26,225 nt of DNA from a virus, in the IMG/VR virus record IMGVR_UViG_3300046512_000075, positions 1-26,225 of that record. One strand, given 5' to 3'. Shown one piece after another: positions 4,558 through 21,914 of the stretch. A model generated the notes under the pieces. It had not been told where the DNA came from. It saw nothing but the letters and a program-made list of their open reading frames with translations, and ran no database searches. Position 1 is the stretch's first letter. The number at the start of each line of letters is the position of its first letter. The translations under genes and the position numbers were made by a program.

Positions 4558-4932
4558 TTAGTGCGGGAGGTTGCGAGTCAGCAGCAGGCGTGTGGGAAGC
4601 AAGCGCGCTGAAACGGGGTGTCGCTGTTGGGTGCAGTTGTCGAGCAGCCAGATGACCGGTCGAAACGGGCCGCTATTTGGGTGAACGCCAAGCCAGGCAA
4701 CGCGCTTGCAGGTCATGCTTTCGAACTCGGCAACGGCCAGTTCAGCGAGGCGTTGCACCAGGTGCTGGGGGACTTCAAGCGACAGCGTCAGGTAGCGGGT
4801 GCAGTTCTCCAGCAACTGCGTGTCTCCGGCCAGATGCTGGCAACGATGGCGGTAGAGGTAGGCCACCGCCGCCTGCTGCATCGCGGCGCGGTAGTCACTG
4901 GCGGGGTTGGTAGTCAGGCTAATAGCGTTCAT
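4558..4932 (-). CDS. Early phage protein, unknown function
   Basis: This 124-residue protein is mostly helical (SDYRAAMQQAAVAYLYRHRCQH, then QLLENCTRYLTLSLEVP, then QRLAELAVAEFESM). No catalytic or binding motif stands out. The C-terminus is rich in arginine and leucine (SARLLPTRLLLTRNLPH). The ATG at 4932 overlaps the Ogr stop as ATGA, with GGAGG 10 bases upstream, so the start is well supported. It lies between the late activator and the replication genes in the early operon, with tight spacing. The type of protein is common in Pseudomonas temperate phages, to my recollection, but I cannot name a function. Confidence 0.6.
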   Translation of the reverse strand: MNAISLTTNPASDYRAAMQQAAVAYLYRHRCQHLAGDTQLLENCTRYLTLSLEVPQHLVQRLAELAVAEFESMTCKRVAWLGVHPNSGPFRPVIWLLDNCTQQRHPVSARLLPTRLLLTRNLPH

Positions 4933-5222
4933 GCGGATGTGGCCTCCATATCCAGTTGATCCAGCAGATCGGGTTGATCGTTGGCTGTTTTCATTGCCTG
5001 GCGACGAATGACCACATCTGCAACTGGCAGCTTTACCGCCGGGTTGGGCATGCCGCTGGGGCTCAGCTCGTGGGTCATTTGAAATTCAGCACGTCCCGCC
5101 CAGCCGCACGCCTCGTTGGTGCACTGCAGGTAGGTGATACGTAGGAAAATGTGTTGGCCTTCGCTGGTGCGGATGCGCATGCGGCCGTGGCAGTGGGGGC
5201 AGACGAGTTTGTACGTGCTCAC
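4929..5222 (-). CDS. ogr: Ogr/Delta-type zinc-finger activator of late genes
   Basis: The protein has 97 residues and the four-cysteine finger of the Ogr/Delta family: C8 and C11 (CPHC), then C34 and C39 (CTNEAC), with the basic RMRIRTS between. Ogr of P2 and Delta of P4 bind dyad sites upstream of the late promoters and recruit host RNA polymerase through the alpha subunit. The start is GTG at 5222, overlapping the upstream stop as GTGA. In P2 ogr lies after D. Here it sits in the middle of the early operon, so it should be made directly from the early promoter and time the late phase. Its likely targets in this window are the matching dyads before V and FI (20081-20103 and 15044-15066). Family call confident; target sites inferred. 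Confidence 0.88.
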   Translation of the reverse strand: MSTYKLVCPHCHGRMRIRTSEGQHIFLRITYLQCTNEACGWAGRAEFQMTHELSPSGMPNPAVKLPVADVVIRRQAMKTANDQPDLLDQLDMEATSA

Positions 5223-6771: not shown

Positions 6772-7728
6772 ATGGCGGTCAAGCAGAAGTCTCTAAATCG
6801 TACGTTGGCACTCAAGCCAATAATTTTTGCGAAAGAAATCGATAAAAAACTATCTGAACTGTTGATTGAGGCTGATAAGGCTTGTGATACGGTCGGTAAG
6901 CGAATGATGCATGATTACGTAATCGGTCCAGATGGCCCGATTCCGGATTACAGTTATTTTTATAATAATTTCGATATCTATGAAAATGGCGCGGTCTTTT
7001 TTGAGGTTTGGTCATACATTCCAGGAAGAATGCCAGCCGGGTTTACTCCCGACCTTACAGCCAAAAATGCAATGTACGACGTTGCTCAGCTTGTAGATGG
7101 GAATGGTAATGCAAAAGAATTAATTCATATTTCTCACGTGTTAATATATAAAAATGCTGCCATAATTGAAGCTACAAAGGGCACTGGTGGCTCTTATTTG
7201 ATTGAGAAATATCTAAATAAGTTGATCCGGGAGCGATGTGTAAAGCGGCCACCTCATGTTGCGTTTACTACTGCAATATCGTCTGACTTGTTTGGGGAGA
7301 TTCAGCAAGGAGGTGGTGCGGTATCTATATCTTTAGGGTTAACCCATGCAAAGCCGGGAAAAGATAATAAAGTAGTTGGCCTGTTATCTGACGCGCACTC
7401 TGTGTTTAGTCGCACTGATCTTGTGACGCTCAGTTGGAGTGCAGGTAGTAATTCGACTTTGAGTGCGGATGAGGTCGTAAGCGAGGCTCGTACAGCCAAA
7501 GACGACGAGCTTGATAAAATTTTTATTAAACTGAAGCATGGCAGTATCAAAGGTCTGTCAAAATATAAAATTACAAACCCCATTGTCGTTAGGGATGCAG
7601 GTGGTCGGAATCCTGACCATAAAGAAGTGAAAGAGACTATGATTGATTACCTGGGGCGCCTGTTGCAACCAGATGCTAAGGGTAAACGCGTGTTAGACGA
7701 TGAGGGTAACTTGATAAATAATGTCTAG
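6772..7728 (+). CDS. Accessory protein A of a rex-like two-gene cassette, unknown function
   Basis: This 318-residue soluble protein has no recognised family. It has no signal or membrane segment and no Walker, HNH or other nuclease motif I can point to. The N-terminal third is mixed alpha/beta; residues 118-152 read HISHVLIYKNAAIIEA, a glycine turn (KGTGG) and a helix SYLIEKYLNKLI; 195-260 has strands then an acidic-basic helix (DDELDKIFIKLKHG). Order and style recall lambda RexA, and size and pairing with a membrane protein also recall Kiwa KwaB. This is architecture, not shown homology. The ribosome site AAGGTGG lies 4 bases before the ATG. Codons are far more A/T-rich than in the flanking phage genes, a sign of transfer. 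It overlaps gene B by 8 bases, so the two are translated together. Confidence 0.7.
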   Translation: MAVKQKSLNRTLALKPIIFAKEIDKKLSELLIEADKACDTVGKRMMHDYVIGPDGPIPDYSYFYNNFDIYENGAVFFEVWSYIPGRMPAGFTPDLTAKNAMYDVAQLVDGNGNAKELIHISHVLIYKNAAIIEATKGTGGSYLIEKYLNKLIRERCVKRPPHVAFTTAISSDLFGEIQQGGGAVSISLGLTHAKPGKDNKVVGLLSDAHSVFSRTDLVTLSWSAGSNSTLSADEVVSEARTAKDDELDKIFIKLKHGSIKGLSKYKITNPIVVRDAGGRNPDHKEVKETMIDYLGRLLQPDAKGKRVLDDEGNLINNV

Positions 7729-8323
7729 GAAATGGCTTCCTGAAGAAATAGTGAACCTTGGGCTGGTAATTCGACAGTTTGGTATTGTCTCGAAAGCCGC
7801 TACAAATCACGTTTGCTCGCTATTCCTCAATTTTGTTTTTTTGATGGCTGGTGGCATTGTTGGATATATGCTGAGCGTCTCTGCTCAGGATAAAATCCTA
7901 GATTCTCTTTTAAGCTTTTGTGGGATAATTATTGGCTTTGTAATTACCGCTATGCTGTTTTCAGGTCGCAATCAATCGGCGGACAAGCTGGGCCTTGAGC
8001 AGGCTAAGGTGTATGCACTCAAGACGAGGTATATTCTAGTGTCTCAGACGCAGACTCTTATCGCGTTTTTATTTTGTGTAGGCTTCAGTTTGTTTGCAAT
8101 TATGTGTAAAAATTCCAATCTGAGTTCTGTTGATTCGCAGTTGGTGTTTGCGCTTGCAATGGGGTATTTTTCTCTTGGAGTTTATCGAACTATATTTTTA
8201 CCTTTTCAAATTTACGATGTTCACTCCTTTGCTCTTGATTCATTGATTCTGGAAAAAGAGGAACAAGCAAATTTGAAGGCGAAAAACGTTATGGATGGAT
8301 TTAAATCAATAAAAAGAGATTGA
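7721..8323 (+). CDS. Accessory protein B, four-helix membrane protein of the rex-like cassette
   Basis: The 200-residue product has four likely transmembrane helices, at about 31-52, 63-82, 109-129 and 139-160. Between helices 2 and 3 is a polar loop (SGRNQSADKLGLEQAKVYALKTRY), and the C-terminal tail is charged (EKEEQANLKAKN, then KSIKRD). An amphipathic N-terminus of 28 residues precedes helix 1. Such a protein would sit in the inner membrane with both ends in the cytoplasm. No family is recognised. Lambda RexB and Kiwa KwaA are also small four-helix proteins paired with a soluble partner, so a channel or membrane effector triggered by protein A is a reasonable guess. The ATG overlaps the end of gene A (ATGTCTAG) and has no strong site of its own. 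It ends 5 bases before the convergent stop of gene D. Confidence 0.7.
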   Translation: MSRKWLPEEIVNLGLVIRQFGIVSKAATNHVCSLFLNFVFLMAGGIVGYMLSVSAQDKILDSLLSFCGIIIGFVITAMLFSGRNQSADKLGLEQAKVYALKTRYILVSQTQTLIAFLFCVGFSLFAIMCKNSNLSSVDSQLVFALAMGYFSLGVYRTIFLPFQIYDVHSFALDSLILEKEEQANLKAKNVMDGFKSIKRD

Positions 8324-8325
8324 TT
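8304..8325. terminator. A/T-rich inverted repeat at the cassette/D junction
   Basis: AATCAAT (8304-8310) and ATTGATT (8319-8325) pair around an AAAAAGAG loop, overlapping the stop of gene B and 3 bases from the end of D. The stem is weak, and the plus-strand tail is only CTTTC. It may help end transcripts from either side. Confidence 0.3.
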
Positions 8326-8328
8326 CTT

Positions 8329-9600
8329 TCAATGGCTTGAGTGGTCCTGCATCTTGCGCCACTCTCGATCCACCGCCCGCTTGGCCGTCTTCTCACTGGC
8401 ATACAACCACCGTAGCCGCCTCGGCTTCGCCTGATCACCCGCCGTAATCGTTTTTTCCTTCCCGGTTTTCGCGTCGCGGTAATACGCGATGATCCCCGTG
8501 TAATCCCCCGTGTTCTCCTCCGCCAAATCCTCAACATTGTCCTCCGGCAACTTGCTCTCCAGCTCCAGGCTGACCGTGTAACCCCCGTCCGCACTCAGGC
8601 TGTGCTGCACATTCCCGCCATACCAAATGATCTCGTCGATTTCCGCCTTCACACCCTGGAGCGTGTACGTCAGTTCGGGAATCAGATCCGGCCGGCCCAT
8701 CGCCAGGGTGTAGCTGAGCGTGGCACTGCCGCGCTGCAACCGCCGAAACTCGGCACGGGCGGCCCGCAGGGCTGACTGCTGGTCGCTGTAGGTATGGCGC
8801 AGGTCCTTGAGATTGTCGCCGCCGCCGGCAATGGCTTCCTGTTTCTTGGCGCTGTTCACGTCGTAGTAGTAAGCGCGCACGCCGTCGTAGCTGTCGCGGT
8901 CGGCTTGCAGGTAGCGGTGCTGGTCGCCGTCGGCGCGGGTGAGGGTGATGTGGGGCAGGTCCATGCCACTGGCGGTCTTGCCGCCACCCGCCGGTAGGCA
9001 CAGCAGGCAGCCGGCCTTGACGCTGGCCACCGCGTCGAATTCTTCGCCCAGGCGGCTGATGAGGTTGGCGTCGGATTCGTTGGCCTGGTCGAGTTGCAGG
9101 ATGGGCAAACCGTCCAGCGCGCCGGCGATGGTGGCGGTGAGGCCGTTGCCAATGGCGATATCGCCCAGGACGTCGCCGAGGGTGGTGTTGCTCCAACTGC
9201 GCTCGCGTTTGGTTTTGAGGCCCTTGCGCAGGTCTGCCGATCGAGCGCGGATGCTGAGCACGTCCGGCGCGCCGCTGTGCTCGGTTTCGTCGACGGTGTA
9301 GGTGCCTTTGTCGACCAGGCCGGTGTCGCTCCAGCCCAACCACAACCGCACCACTGCACCCTTCGGTGGAATCGTCAGCAAGCCGTCATGGTCGCTGAGG
9401 GTGATGCTGAGTTGGTCGGCCTCGACGCCGCGGTTGTCGGTCAGCTCCAGGCTCATCAGCCGCGGGCTGATTATTTGGGCAATGTCCAGGCCGTCGACGG
9501 CGAGCCGGAAGGCCGGCACCGGATAGGCTGCGTCCCGGACGTAGCGCTCTGCGGTGTTGCGCAGGTAACCGGTGACCTTGGCAATCATGGGCTCGATCAC
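8329..9600 (-). CDS. D: Tail protein D (baseplate hub)
   Basis: The 423-residue protein is the GpD family of P2. It was first named a late-gene control protein and is structurally a hub like T4 gp27. It begins MIEPMIAKVTGYLRN and has the typical early segment PAFRLAVDGLDIAQIISPRLMSLELTD, then DHDGLLTIPPKGAVVRLWLGW, and a later HTYSDQQSALRAARAEFRRLQRG. P2 D is somewhat shorter (about 390), so the C-terminal RDAKTGKEKTITAGDQAKPRRLRWLY segment is extra or lengthened; phiCTX-type phages often show it. The start is GTG at 9600, overlapping the U stop as GTGA. It is the last gene of the FI-to-D late unit and abuts the convergent accessory cassette. Confidence 0.9.
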   Translation of the reverse strand: MIEPMIAKVTGYLRNTAERYVRDAAYPVPAFRLAVDGLDIAQIISPRLMSLELTDNRGVEADQLSITLSDHDGLLTIPPKGAVVRLWLGWSDTGLVDKGTYTVDETEHSGAPDVLSIRARSADLRKGLKTKRERSWSNTTLGDVLGDIAIGNGLTATIAGALDGLPILQLDQANESDANLISRLGEEFDAVASVKAGCLLCLPAGGGKTASGMDLPHITLTRADGDQHRYLQADRDSYDGVRAYYYDVNSAKKQEAIAGGGDNLKDLRHTYSDQQSALRAARAEFRRLQRGSATLSYTLAMGRPDLIPELTYTLQGVKAEIDEIIWYGGNVQHSLSADGGYTVSLELESKLPEDNVEDLAEENTGDYTGIIAYYRDAKTGKEKTITAGDQAKPRRLRWLYASEKTAKRAVDREWRKMQDHSSH

Positions 9601-15043: not shown

Positions 15044-15066
15044 CTTGTAGGGGATGGGGTTACAGG
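15044..15066 (-). promoter_or_regulatory. Candidate Ogr site of the FI late promoter
   Basis: On the minus strand CCTGTA, 11 bases, TACAAG (followed by TG). The same half-sites with the same 11-base gap occur before V (20081-20103) and, on the visual scan, nowhere else in the window. The place fits P2 late promoter PF. The letters differ from the P2 Ogr consensus (TGTTGT-N12-ACAACA), but this is a dyad of the same kind and size. Confidence 0.6.
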
Positions 15067-15076
15067 TGGCAGATGG

Positions 15077-15454
15077 TCAGGCGGGATTGATCTTGTAGCG
15101 TTTGCCGCCACCTATCCGGACACCGGCCCAAAACAGCCAGGCTCGCCAGCGTGCAATTCCCTCGGCACGCAGGCCACGGTACAGCACCGCGTCGGCCTGT
15201 TTACGAGTGAGAGGGCCGGTGGTGTAGAGCCAGTCGTGCACGGTGGCGGCGTAGTTGCCGTAACCGGCGAGCAGTGCGTACAGCGCGAACAGGAAAATGT
15301 TGTGCAGGAACCGGATGCTGGCGAAGTCGGTTCTGAAGCCGGCCGGGACAGTGATCAGTCCGTGGTCATCGTCCTGGATCGACAGCTCCGCCAGCAGGGT
15401 GCGGTCCCACTTGCTGTCCTGTTCGGTTTTCAGAGTGTTCAGGAACTTGCTCAC
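15077..15454 (-). CDS. DUF1353-type protein downstream of the fibre genes
   Basis: The 125-residue protein has the motifs of the DUF1353 family: GLITVPAGFRTDFASI (33-47) and TVHDWLYTTGPLTRKQADAVLYRGLRAEG (71-99, with H73 and D74), plus a hydrophobic stretch around 53-64 that could touch a membrane. Function is unknown in the family, which is widespread near phage tail genes. The GTG at 15454 overlaps the upstream stop as GTGA and has GGTGG 5 bases before it, so it was preferred to ATG 15466. It is the last gene before the FI promoter dyad. P2 has no gene of this type here. Confidence 0.75.
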   Translation of the reverse strand: MSKFLNTLKTEQDSKWDRTLLAELSIQDDDHGLITVPAGFRTDFASIRFLHNIFLFALYALLAGYGNYAATVHDWLYTTGPLTRKQADAVLYRGLRAEGIARWRAWLFWAGVRIGGGKRYKINPA

Positions 15455-16014
15455 GCCGGCCACCATATGTCGTCGGTGAAGTTCTCAGGAATCTCCGGCA
15501 GATCCTTCAATGCACGACCGGCGTGGATCAGTTCCGACTTCCGTAGCGCGGCGGCTCGTCCAAAATCGACAACGGTTTGAGCGTCCATCGGTACCAGCGT
15601 GTTTTCGGCGCAGATCCAGGCGAAGTCTTGGTCGGGGTTAGACCAGCGCAGATTGCCCGGTTGAACACCTCCGACCACCGCCATGAATGCCATCTGGGCA
15701 GCGCCTGCGATGTTTTCTCTGTCGGTCGTTTTCGATTGATAGAGCACCTCATTGAACGTTACACCAGCGTCGATCCGGCGGTCACGCTCCGCATCTATCT
15801 GGGCGTGGCTTACAACAATTGGAGAGTCGGGAACGTCCTCCAAAAAGGGCAGGCCGTCGCCGTCGATGCTTATCAATTTGCCGCGTGATGCGCCTTCCAT
15901 TAACGATTGATGCAACTCCAAAGAAATTTTCACTGCATCGCTTGGTAGCTGATCTTTACGGAAAATCACCGTACTGAAAAAGCCGGGAGTCGATGGGCTG
16001 TAATAAATATCCAT
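15451..16014 (-). CDS. Tail fibre assembly protein with DUF4376 domain
   Basis: The 187-residue protein follows the fibre gene, the place of P2 G. The N-terminus (MDIYYSPSTPGFFSTVIF, then ISLELHQSLMEGASRGKLI) is the usual phage tail fibre assembly/chaperone start. Residues about 68-175 (HAQIDAERDRRIDAGVTF, AAQMAFMAVVGG, FGRAAALRKSELIHAGRALKD) are the DUF4376 domain, often attached to these chaperones. It should fold or trimerise the fibre tip. TAGGT stands about 5 bases before the ATG at 16014. The gene starts 14 bases after the fibre stop and overlaps the next gene. Confidence 0.85.
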   Translation of the reverse strand: MDIYYSPSTPGFFSTVIFRKDQLPSDAVKISLELHQSLMEGASRGKLISIDGDGLPFLEDVPDSPIVVSHAQIDAERDRRIDAGVTFNEVLYQSKTTDRENIAGAAQMAFMAVVGGVQPGNLRWSNPDQDFAWICAENTLVPMDAQTVVDFGRAAALRKSELIHAGRALKDLPEIPENFTDDIWWPA

Positions 16015-19125: not shown

Positions 19126-19466
19126 ACGCTTCCCCCCAGTTGCAGTGGCAGGCTCAGGCTAAAGGGTTCATTGGTGTCGACGACGGAGCCCTCCAGATCA
19201 AGCACGGACTGCCCTTGCAGGTTCGCACCGAGGAACTGCACGCGACTGAGGCTGATACGGGTCTCCCAACGCATCAACGCCATGACTGAGCCCGCGTAAA
19301 CGCGTAGGCGCGTGGCGTCGTTGAAGGGATGATCGACCAGCTCGGGCAGCAGGCTGCCGTATTCGCGGCGCATCACGCGCGTGCCGATGCGGGTGGTGAG
19401 AATGTCCGTGATGCTCTGGCCGATGTGGTCCAGATCGCTGATGGTTGCGCCGGTTTCGCGGTTCAT
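19122..19466 (-). CDS. W: Baseplate protein W (gp25-like)
   Basis: This 114-residue protein is the GPW/gp25 family, a lysozyme-like baseplate wedge protein without the need for a catalytic site. The pattern ISDLDHIGQSITDILTTRIGTRVMRREYGSLLPELVDHPFND (held by several short motifs, among them REYGS and ELVD) is the diagnostic part. Length agrees with P2 W (115). The start overlaps the V stop and its stop overlaps J. Confidence 0.93.
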   Translation of the reverse strand: MNRETGATISDLDHIGQSITDILTTRIGTRVMRREYGSLLPELVDHPFNDATRLRVYAGSVMALMRWETRISLSRVQFLGANLQGQSVLDLEGSVVDTNEPFSLSLPLQLGGSV

Positions 19467-20035
19467 TCTGGTTTCCCCGTCTTCGCGCTGCCCACCAGCA
19501 CGCCGCCGTGCAGGTGCTTGACAAGGCTGATGGTGGCCGCGACCACGTCTTCGGAGACGGTCACCAGGCCGACCACGTTCTGGTTGCCGGTTTGGTTGTA
19601 ATCGCCCTGGTGATTGATGGGGCCGATGATGTTGATCCCGCCCTTGCTCACCAGGCTGGTTGTACCGCTTTCGGGCAGGGTTGCGTTCAGGTGGTGGGCG
19701 ACGCTGTCGTACTCAATCACCGCGCCATCGGCGTAGGTGCGACGGTGCAGGCCGGCGCGGTTACCGTTGGCTGGGATGTGGTCACTGAACAGGCCGGTTA
19801 CTACGATGCCGTTGGCGAGCTGCCCGGATGGGCTGAAAAGAATCACCTGTTCGCCTTCGGTGGGTGGATCCCACTCTTGGTCAGCACCGGCGCGCAGGGC
19901 GAGCCACGGCAGCCAGGCGGTGATCAGCTTTCCGGTTTTTACCTGCACGCGCGGGGGCTCCATCTGCACGGCGGCGATTACGCCGAAGCGGATGAGGTTT
20001 TCGAGCATGCGGGAGAGGGCGGCGAAGTCGTTCAT
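19463..20035 (-). CDS. V: Baseplate spike protein V
   Basis: The 190-residue protein is the tail spike that pierces the outer membrane. The N-terminal OB-like domain has MLENLIRFGVIAAVQ, VQVKTGKLITAWLPWLALRAG and EGEQVILFSPSGQLANGIVV. The C-terminus is a beta-helix with NIIGPINHQGDYNQTGNQ and KHLHGGVLVGSAKTGKP. The end shows the H-x-H style metal-site region (KHLHGG). P2 V is about 211. The ATG at 20035 fits the family start; a frame open to 20074 is an upstream extension. Neither has a good ribosome site. It is the first gene of the V-W-J-I-H unit, and a late-promoter dyad stands 46-68 bases upstream. Confidence 0.93.
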   Translation of the reverse strand: MNDFAALSRMLENLIRFGVIAAVQMEPPRVQVKTGKLITAWLPWLALRAGADQEWDPPTEGEQVILFSPSGQLANGIVVTGLFSDHIPANGNRAGLHRRTYADGAVIEYDSVAHHLNATLPESGTTSLVSKGGINIIGPINHQGDYNQTGNQNVVGLVTVSEDVVAATISLVKHLHGGVLVGSAKTGKPE

Positions 20036-20080
20036 GGCGCCGATGGTGGGGCCGCGCGTGCGAGGGCGCAGCATCTGTCA

Positions 20081-20103
20081 CTTGTAAGGCGGATATGTAC
20101 AGG
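20081..20103 (-). promoter_or_regulatory. Candidate Ogr site of the V late promoter
   Basis: On the minus strand CCTGTA, 11 bases, TACAAG (followed by TG), identical in half-sites and gap to the site before FI. It fits the place of P2 promoter PV. It lies in the 131-base divergent gap shared with the accessory gene at 20167. Confidence 0.6.
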
Positions 20104-20166
20104 CTGAGATAGACTTGAGGGGGAAAAATAATGCGCTCCTAAAATAATCCAAGGCAGGAAATACTT

Positions 20167-20727
20167 ATGTTTTTAGAAACGCTTAAAAGCGTACCTTCAG
20201 AGGCATGGATAGGGCTGGCAGGTGTTGTTTTTGGTTCGTTATTGACAACTTTTGGCGTCTGGTTGACTAATCGCTCTAATTTGAGTCAATTGCAAAAGCA
20301 ACTTCAGCATGAGGATAAAAGGATTAATGGGAGAGTATCAAAAGAGCGTTTCGAGGAATTGTATATTCTTGTGTCTAGTTGGCTGAACGGTTTTTTTGTA
20401 GATTATCTTCATTTGATAAGTGTCATGAGGGATCAGATTACCTATAAAGAATATACTGATATTGTAATTAAAGCAGGTAGTGTCACGGATTTCAGTCGTA
20501 TCGAAATGATAGTTGGAATATATGGTGGTGATATTACTGAGGCTTTTAATCGTGTGTTGGCATTGCGAGCGCCACGCAATGCAATCATTACTGAACACAA
20601 GTTTACTTACGAACGTGGCGGGTCGGGAACACAGTTCATCGAGCCTTTTACAGCTGCCCAGACGGCTTTAGAGGATGCCTGTGAAGAGTTGAAGCTTGCT
20701 ATTGCTCGTGCTGCTCGCGTTAGTTAA
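20167..20727 (+). CDS. Accessory membrane-anchored protein inserted between S and V
   Basis: This 186-residue protein is not recognised. One transmembrane segment lies at about 12-35 (AWIGLAGVVFGSLLTTFGVWL), followed by NRSNLSQLQKQLQHEDKRI, a probable short coiled coil, then a helical cytoplasmic domain. It runs against the late genes, is clearly more A/T-rich than they are, and lies exactly at the boundary of two late operons. These are marks of a moron. AGGA lies 7 bases before the ATG. Its TAA overlaps the TAA of S on the other strand (shared TTAA at 20724-20727). Similar single-helix anchor proteins are common in prophage cargo; a superinfection-exclusion or defence role is a guess from context. 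Confidence 0.7.
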   Translation: MFLETLKSVPSEAWIGLAGVVFGSLLTTFGVWLTNRSNLSQLQKQLQHEDKRINGRVSKERFEELYILVSSWLNGFFVDYLHLISVMRDQITYKEYTDIVIKAGSVTDFSRIEMIVGIYGGDITEAFNRVLALRAPRNAIITEHKFTYERGGSGTQFIEPFTAAQTALEDACEELKLAIARAARVS

Positions 20728-21188
20728 TGCTCTTCAGTCAGTAGTGCTACTAAACTATTACGAATCAGATCTATATCTGATTCGGCAAACCCCAAAATTG
20801 CTCGCTTGTCATAGCGCACGTCGGGAGCGCCAGGTTCGGCACGATCTTTTAAACCATATTGGTGAACCCTAGCGATCCGGGCGATACGCCCGGTGAACCC
20901 GACAGAGATTCCGTTGCTGTCACCTCGGACCTTCAGATATGACGCAGTCCGCAGCTTTTTGAACATCGCCAACTTCCGACGAACCCGGCCCTGCTTGCCG
21001 CGCAGATCACGTTGCTTACGCGGCGCAAACTTGCTCCCGTCCGGATTTTCTTGCGCCATCACGCGCTTCTGCTGACTGCGGCGCAGCTCCTGGCCGATGC
21101 TTCGCGCCAACTTGCTTCGTTCTCCTGGCTCGAGCCGATCCAGCAGCACCGCCGCCCAGGTTTCTAGAGCCTCCAGGTTATTCGCCAT
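20724..21188 (-). CDS. S: Tail completion protein S (virion morphogenesis)
   Basis: This 154-residue protein belongs to the phage virion morphogenesis family of P2 S. Typical parts are LEALETWAAVLLDRLEPGERSKLAR, IGQELRRSQQKRVMAQENPDGSKFAPRK and the IARVHQYGLKDR segment. It helps complete tails or join them to heads. The ATG at 21188 was chosen because GGAGGG lies 6 bases upstream; an earlier in-frame ATG (21206) has no such site. It overlaps R by 11 bases. The last 70 bases contain a perfect 10-bp hairpin, and the stop is shared with the convergent accessory gene. Confidence 0.9.
   Translation of the reverse strand: MANNLEALETWAAVLLDRLEPGERSKLARSIGQELRRSQQKRVMAQENPDGSKFAPRKQRDLRGKQGRVRRKLAMFKKLRTASYLKVRGDSNGISVGFTGRIARIARVHQYGLKDRAEPGAPDVRYDKRAILGFAESDIDLIRNSLVALLTEEH
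20761..20784. promoter_or_regulatory. Perfect 10-bp hairpin near the end of S
   Basis: CGAATCAGAT (20761-20770), CTAT, ATCTGATTCG (20775-20784). It lies within the S codons and 33 bases beyond the stop of the opposing accessory gene. It has no T-run on either strand, so it may be a transcript-end stabiliser or a protein site rather than a simple terminator. Confidence 0.5.
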
Positions 21189-21660
21189 CCGGCACCCTCC
21201 ATTCACTGGTGTTGCCCTGCGTACCAGGCTTCCAGTTCGGATCGAGATAGCCCACCACGTACTGCGGTTCGTTCGGGTGCTTTACGGTGGTGTTGCCCTG
21301 GTCATCCTTACCTACAACCACGCGCTCCGTCAGGGCCAGGGTTATGCTGAGGTCCACCTTGTTCTTGTCGAGGATGTCGGCTTCGAACTGAATGCCGTCT
21401 TTGACCTTGTCCAGGTTCTCTAGCATCTCGGACTGGTTGACGCTGAGCCAAGCCAGGATCGGCAGAATCACGCTGTCGGGGTGACCGGCGAACTCGGTGA
21501 GGATGATCTGCAGGTCAAAGCTGTATTCAAACGACAGGGTGTGGGCGGCGGTGCAACGGACTTTGCCGTTGTCTATGAATATCAGCAGACGGTCGGGGTT
21601 GTGCTTGAACTCGGCGACGGTGGCCAGCAGGTGGGCGCGTAGGCTTTCCGGCTTATTCAT
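21178..21660 (-). CDS. R: Tail completion protein R
   Basis: This 160-residue protein matches P2 R: MNKPESLRAHLLATVAEFKHNPDRLLIFIDNG, read in short blocks (LRAHLL, NPDRL, IFIDNGKV), then LSFEYSFDLQIILTEFAGH and LPILAWLSVNQSEML. It acts with S in tail completion. The ATG at 21660 overlaps the LysC stop as ATGA. The frame stays open upstream inside lysC, which is not used. Confidence 0.92.
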   Translation of the reverse strand: MNKPESLRAHLLATVAEFKHNPDRLLIFIDNGKVRCTAAHTLSFEYSFDLQIILTEFAGHPDSVILPILAWLSVNQSEMLENLDKVKDGIQFEADILDKNKVDLSITLALTERVVVGKDDQGNTTVKHPNEPQYVVGYLDPNWKPGTQGNTSEWRVPDGE

Positions 21661-21914
21661 GGGTTGGCCTGCTGGTGTTTGTAGACCAAGTCGACCTGCG
21701 CCGCGCATTCAGCCCAGGCAGCTTCGGCGCGGTCTTCGTCGGTCAATAGGTCACCGTTGTTGATGGGGCTTGTCGCCGGCAGCTGGCACGGCACCACGGC
21801 CGGACAGCCAGTCACGATAAGCGGCGGCGCCGGTGAGGGCGGGGCGCTCGCGCAGCCGGCGAGCAGCATCAGGCAAAAGCTGAGTAGCCCAGTCGCGTAG
21901 TTCGTCGTTTTCAA
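21657..21914 (-). CDS. lysC: Outer-membrane spanin subunit LysC (Rz1-like lipoprotein)
   Basis: The 85-residue product has a lipoprotein signal peptide ending in LLAGC (lipobox cysteine at 21), followed by a proline-rich stretch (ASAPPSPAPP), the hallmark of Rz1-type o-spanins. It partners LysB to fuse the inner and outer membranes at the end of lysis. The start is TTG at 21914 with a strong GAGGAG 8 bases upstream. The first 164 bases lie inside lysB in another frame, as in P2 lysB/lysC. The stop overlaps the start of R. Confidence 0.85.
   Translation of the reverse strand: MKTTNYATGLLSFCLMLLAGCASAPPSPAPPLIVTGCPAVVPCQLPATSPINNGDLLTDEDRAEAAWAECAAQVDLVYKHQQANP

Follow-up and report, generated by a model that had tools for sequence, protein, structure and literature searches.

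A cargo gene in an exchangeable slot between the S and V genes of P2-like phages, with a proposed role in phage exclusion

Between its late genes S and V, a P2-like phage carries a small AT-rich gene that belongs to the accessory (moron) class and fills an exchangeable slot: it sits at the S-V joint, it is absent or replaced in close relatives, and its base composition deviates from that of its surroundings. The gene lies in a 26,225-bp IMG/VR virus contig from a Citexvirus-like phage, analysed in full and called the window below, whose closest annotated relatives are Citexvirus phages of P. aeruginosa. Its product is most likely a phage-exclusion protein that would be tethered to the membrane and expressed in the lysogen. 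The two statements taken jointly, namely an accessory gene in an exchangeable S-V slot that encodes a lysogen-expressed membrane protein protecting against other phages, are held with slightly better than even confidence.

The cargo gene and its surroundings

V and S flank the cargo gene; by the ORF list and Pfam they are minus-strand genes, to which the cargo is antisense (Table 1). The initial annotation, which had described a 186-residue protein with one N-terminal membrane helix encoded antisense between S and V in A/T-rich DNA, agrees with the ORF, Pfam and GC data. The GC content of the ORF is about 40% within DNA of 62% GC, and 300-bp windows range from 0.35 to 0.42 over the gene versus 0.60-0.64 on either side. 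The stop codons of the cargo gene (20725-20727) and S (20724-20726) overlap, so that the genes abut at their 3' ends; a search of this junction revealed neither a terminator-like site nor an intergenic terminator. A promoter scan for the cargo gene returned nothing above chance. Another AT-rich segment (~0.40-0.43 GC), the first along the window, is a two-gene accessory module beside a CI-like repressor (6772-8323), encoding proteins of 318 and 200 aa, the latter with several hydrophobic segments; neither has a significant match in Pfam, PHROG or PADLOC.

Table 1. Coordinates of the cargo gene, its flanking features and the late-activation elements in the window
Feature	Position	Strand	Remarks
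Ogr/Delta zinc-finger late activator homologue	4929..5222	-	Pfam Ogr_Delta, E 3.7e-15
Second TGTA-N11-TACA dyad	15046..15064	-	upstream of FI (start 14968); probably PF late promoter
Gene V, baseplate spike	19463..20035	-	Pfam Phage_base_V (gathering score passed); conserved MND/MNN start in relatives
Ogr-type dyad TGTA-N11-TACA (TGT-N13-ACA)	20083..20101	-	upstream of V
ATAGAC element	20109..20114	+	fixed distance from dyad; specific to the window's cargo family
Cargo leader	20115..20166	+	AT-rich; Shine-Dalgarno-like AGGA; presumed own promoter; sequence read directly
Cargo gene	20167..20727	+	186 aa; ATG start, TAA stop; TM helix, long helix, four-helix bundle
Gene S, tail completion	20724..21206	-	Pfam Phage_tail_S, E 1.9e-35; 3' ~100 bp in exchanged unit
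Gene R, tail terminator, flanking core gene	21178..21708	-	Pfam P2_Phage_GpR

An ORF without a Pfam family in an AT-rich spacer might be read as a chance or decayed frame. Against this, five same-site orthologues align at 49-52% identity over their full length, and full-length orthologues at 45-57% identity occur across phages, Pseudomonas, Extensimonas and Methylotenera. Purifying selection is evident in within-family pairs (dN 0.05 and dS 0.41 for L002 and L015). Because same-length orthologues, constraint on the protein sequence and a confidently predicted fold coincide, the ORF represents a real gene; the chance or decayed reading was rejected and retains a negligible probability.

The same position is occupied in P2. 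The initial annotation had stated that one late unit ends and promoter PV begins in the P2 S/V gap, and the P2 gene order bears this out: the O-operon terminator is followed by the antisense orf30 (NP_046770) and then by the pV activator site. Like the window cargo, orf30 lies antisense in this place. It is non-essential and encodes a different protein, which has no PADLOC match either, and the overlapping stop codons without a terminator-like site distinguish the window from P2. Three regions of P2 are known to vary horizontally, and the orf30 locus is among them (PMC3091744).

Content, boundaries and exchange of the S-V slot

Loci were gathered through the relatedness of V and S, which yielded 95 distinct S-V intervals and, together with the window, a sample of 96 loci, namely those with the greatest similarity to the window's V or S. 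Of these, the window included, 71 have a filled slot and 25 an empty one. Gap length is bimodal: empty intervals (n=25) span 22 bp under the annotated reading frame and 61 bp when measured to the revised start of V, and filled ones measure 466-1392 bp (70 relatives) with a mean GC of 0.42 versus 0.62 in the flanks. Most phages carry a single gene in the slot, which extends to about 1.4 kb at most. By single-linkage clustering at E 1e-3, the cargo of the 71 filled slots fell into 24 clusters with no match between them at this threshold, as expected from the earlier proposal that genes can be inserted at the S/V joint and that relatives may carry different ones there. The opposite-strand placement noted for the window does not extend to the group as a rule, since the longest ORF of the slot opposes S and V in 45 relatives and is co-directional with them in 25 (46 and 25 with the window counted). 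Two kinds of unusual slots were also observed. One IMG/VR contig (L164:760-2056) has two cargo genes stacked in its slot, a window-type gene and a member of another cluster, while L020, L030 and L031 have ~1.4-kb slots in which the longest ORF, winged-helix-like, reaches only 136-158 aa, possibly as decayed cargo.

The family of the window's gene accounts for 6 of the 96 loci and is antisense in all six; other, unrelated cargo occupies 65. Membership in the conserved core of this phage group would explain why the gene recurs at the same place in five sampled relatives, in further IMG/VR contigs and in two Pseudomonas genomes, and why most of those same-site copies share a junction element. With 25 loci empty and 65 holding unrelated genes, this reading was rejected, and we give it almost no weight. 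The survey of S-V intervals that the initial annotation had called for thus failed to produce the pattern of a core gene, that is, the same gene in all relatives with matching base composition: the family is infrequent and AT-rich. The empty relatives suggest that the cargo gene is non-essential for phage growth.

On the V side the slot has a fixed boundary. The start of V was revised from 20074 to the ATG at 20035, 39 nt downstream, because this ATG is conserved, whereas the in-frame codon at 20074 is a non-start in most relatives and a stop in some. Measured from this start, a TGT-N13-ACA dyad begins at -65 to -67 in all 96 loci (shuffles gave a mean of 1.1), and its centre, near -56, coincides with the centre of the pV activator site annotated in P2. 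The window has just two copies of the longer form, TGTA-N11-TACA, where 0.2 would be expected; one precedes V and the other FI. The P2 consensus is given as TGT-N12-ACA (PMC3931495); a search for this pattern at V found none, since the spacing here is N13, as published for Ralstonia P2-like phages with centres at -50 to -90 (PMC5694545). Judging from their position and symmetry and from the Ogr homologue, we infer that the V and FI dyads are Ogr sites; an Ogr-dependent PV beside the slot is consistent with the placement of the dyad before V and with the activator homologue encoded in the window. Between the tail-fibre genes and FI, a DUF1353 gene (15077-15466) occupies the position of fun(Z) in P2.

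In empty loci the S stop region, CTGTAA, itself forms the left arm of the dyad. Cargo is always found between S and the dyad, on the S side; since it is always upstream of this fixed dyad, PV remains intact and the V operon is not split, which supports the earlier claim that cargo can be added without splitting a unit. Within the window's family, ATAGAC is present in 10 of 11 site copies and in none of the 65 other filled or 25 empty loci. It is a possible promoter or leader element of the cargo gene.

Comparison of closely related loci revealed how much is exchanged together with the cargo. Between the window and L002, dS is 0.11 for V, 0.16 for W and 0.06 for J, but 1.15 for S, and the cargo is saturated; the cargo was therefore replaced at a V divergence of only 0.11. 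Among 63 pairs with near-identical V-W (93-99%), identity falls from 0.93 in R to 0.66 toward the cargo, over the final 100 bp of S, and leaps to 0.97 at V, whereas five pairs with both slots empty and near-identical V-W exhibit no such drop in R and S. At matched V identity, the 3' ends of S are more alike when the cargo type is the same (0.67-0.85 versus 0.60, in most bins). Because S identity drops toward the cargo and the S 3' ends track cargo type, the exchanged unit comprises about 100 bp of the S 3' end along with the cargo. The module that is swapped thus runs from the S 3' end through a single cargo gene to the junction and leaves PV and the V operon untouched; the insertion point postulated earlier stands as to its location and has to be widened to include the end of S. 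Most simply, recombination between homologous flanking tail genes would move the unit. The gene tree of the window's family has few supported branches, and the number of entries into the site is not readable from it; the shared ATAGAC junction favours a single entry that was followed by spread between phages.

Slot-mates, predicted fold and distribution of the cargo family

One representative per cargo cluster was examined with Pfam, and 21 cluster representatives (L030, L026 and L081 being left out) were examined with PADLOC, which matched six of the 21 versus none of nine core genes. One cluster matches the Shedu protein SduA at 632 bits and another cargo gene matches PD-T7-4 (E 4e-82). The further matches are to PDC-S15 (FRG domain), PDC-S31 (twice) and PDC-S45, PDC models representing candidate, not proven, defence systems. 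Pfam domains found in the cargo include HEPN_Toprim_N with RiboL-PSP-HEPN, DUF4062, DUF4145, DUF2971 and a trypsin-like protease, although the majority of families at the slot are uncharacterised.

With fixed boundary genes, high turnover and several unrelated defence systems, the S-V locus has the properties by which defence hotspots are recognized, and it is a third defence-type hotspot of P2-like phages, beside the two in E. coli P2-like phages. In their accessible portions, the E. coli surveys of P2-like defence loci describe a cos-proximal (old/tin) and a fun(Z) hotspot and do not name the S-V slot as one (PMC9122126, PMC9519451). As these portions portray them, all three are small variable loci between conserved P2 genes that carry anti-phage systems, and the S-V slot differs from the other two in holding mostly one gene, in its size of up to ~1.4 kb, and in having a late-promoter activator site as its limit.

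The cargo protein itself belongs to no Pfam, NCBIfam, PHROG or PADLOC family. The best PADLOC match (E 0.023) covers the TM segment only and places the protein in no known defence family. One hydrophobic segment was predicted near the N-terminus, at about residues 13-33, so that by prediction the protein is a small membrane protein, as superinfection exclusion proteins are. The AlphaFold model (12 sequences, mean pLDDT 86) contains a single long helix, residues 11-87, which runs from the membrane segment into a bundle. Net positive charge follows the TM helix, and on this charge only an N-out/C-in topology with a cytoplasmic bundle is suggested. No PDB chain has sequence similarity to the protein, and a Foldseek search of the model gave no match below E 0.001 in the PDB or viral models. 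The top structural matches were to periplasmic sensor bundles of chemoreceptors, at a Z of 14.9 that is in the usual range for helical bundles, which reach such scores by chance arrangement. These matches would suit a sensor and some other role alike. The 4HB sensor domains of MCP2201 and Tar share with the cargo protein a TM helix that leads into a four-helix bundle (rmsd 2.4 across 126 residues), but the cargo protein has no signalling domain, no sequence similarity to them and probably the opposite membrane orientation.

Relatives of the family were found only when an alignment of six sequences served as the query. Searches with the single sequence gave none in viral or genome contigs and just three weak Enterobacter phage matches (E 8e-3), and no clear relative was found encoded in phage or plasmid records. 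A search of 399 Pseudomonas genomes yielded only three strong matches, two of them at the S-V site of P2-like prophages; same-slot relatives also occur in other IMG/VR contigs. Outside phages, the Extensimonas relative is a lone AT-rich chromosomal gene with no phage nearby. The Methylotenera and epsilonproteobacterial relatives lie directly downstream of integron integrases (TIGR02249, 473 and 409 bits), in arrays whose genes are separated by attC-like repeats. These sites were identified through repeated intercassette sequences; a strict attC scan gave one match only, inside an integrase gene. Integron arrays with IntI, attC-like repeats and the window's gene family span L174:2606-9000 and L176:2759-12318, and the latter holds a further TM-plus-helix cassette of similar architecture (7893-8405). 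The phage copy differs from these cassettes in having no attC-like site in the scanned stretch and in being bounded by S and the dyad. In Pseudomonas peli (L175:5629-8717), small same-strand ORFs that include the window's family lie between attC-like spacers beside earP/efp and resemble an integrase-less cassette cluster, no integrase having been seen within the stretch. Weak relatives of ~280-310 aa (E 1e-5 to 1e-8) in four Pseudomonas genomes (L190-L193) have a similar N-terminal TM segment, then a longer C-terminal part.

Proposed function and significance

Phage exclusion is the best single guess for the function of the cargo gene on the basis of its slot-mates, the spread of its family through integrons and the architecture of its product. 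The argument from location is indirect, since most of its slot-mate families are likewise uncharacterised. A lysogenic-conversion gene that serves host fitness and is not directed at phages, for instance one encoding a membrane stress or signalling protein, would fit the lack of a defence-family match, the resemblance of the fold to sensor four-helix bundles and the many non-defence functions that integron cassettes carry; we consider it unlikely in view of the known and candidate defence genes that recur in the same slot and of the single small genes there, which are typical of phage-exclusion morons. Under the exclusion reading, the cargo gene would have a promoter of its own that is active in the lysogen and points away from PV, and its product would cross the inner membrane once and carry a helical bundle on the cytoplasmic face. 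The lysogen would be protected from other phages through exclusion at DNA entry or through an abortive membrane response. On induction, Ogr-driven late transcription running off the end of S would be antisense to the cargo gene and might silence it.

The slot-mates, being defence effectors, also make it quite improbable that the product helps the phage against host immunity, as an anti-defence factor at work early in infection or upon induction. P2-like phages have to get into cells that are defended, and a membrane-tethered helical protein could serve this end, but the gene reads against the late operons from what is presumed to be a lysogen promoter, and its relatives are found within integrons and, in one case, as a solitary gene of a chromosome without a nearby phage.

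A wider proposal is that the family of the cargo protein is a new anti-phage family, shared by integron cassettes and the cargo of P2-like prophages, and that the S-V slot is a third general and minable defence hotspot; the two parts together fall a little short of an even chance. The slot now has exact, searchable boundaries, namely the end of S and the TGT-N13-ACA dyad before V, and in Pseudomonas P2-like phages its small genes, mostly one per phage, come from at least two dozen families. Since Shedu and PD-T7-4 occur there alongside a majority of uncharacterised families, it is a compact place to look for anti-phage gene candidates, of which the window's family is one. If the proposal of a new family and a third hotspot is true, the S-V slot of P2-like phages could be mined automatically for new defence genes.
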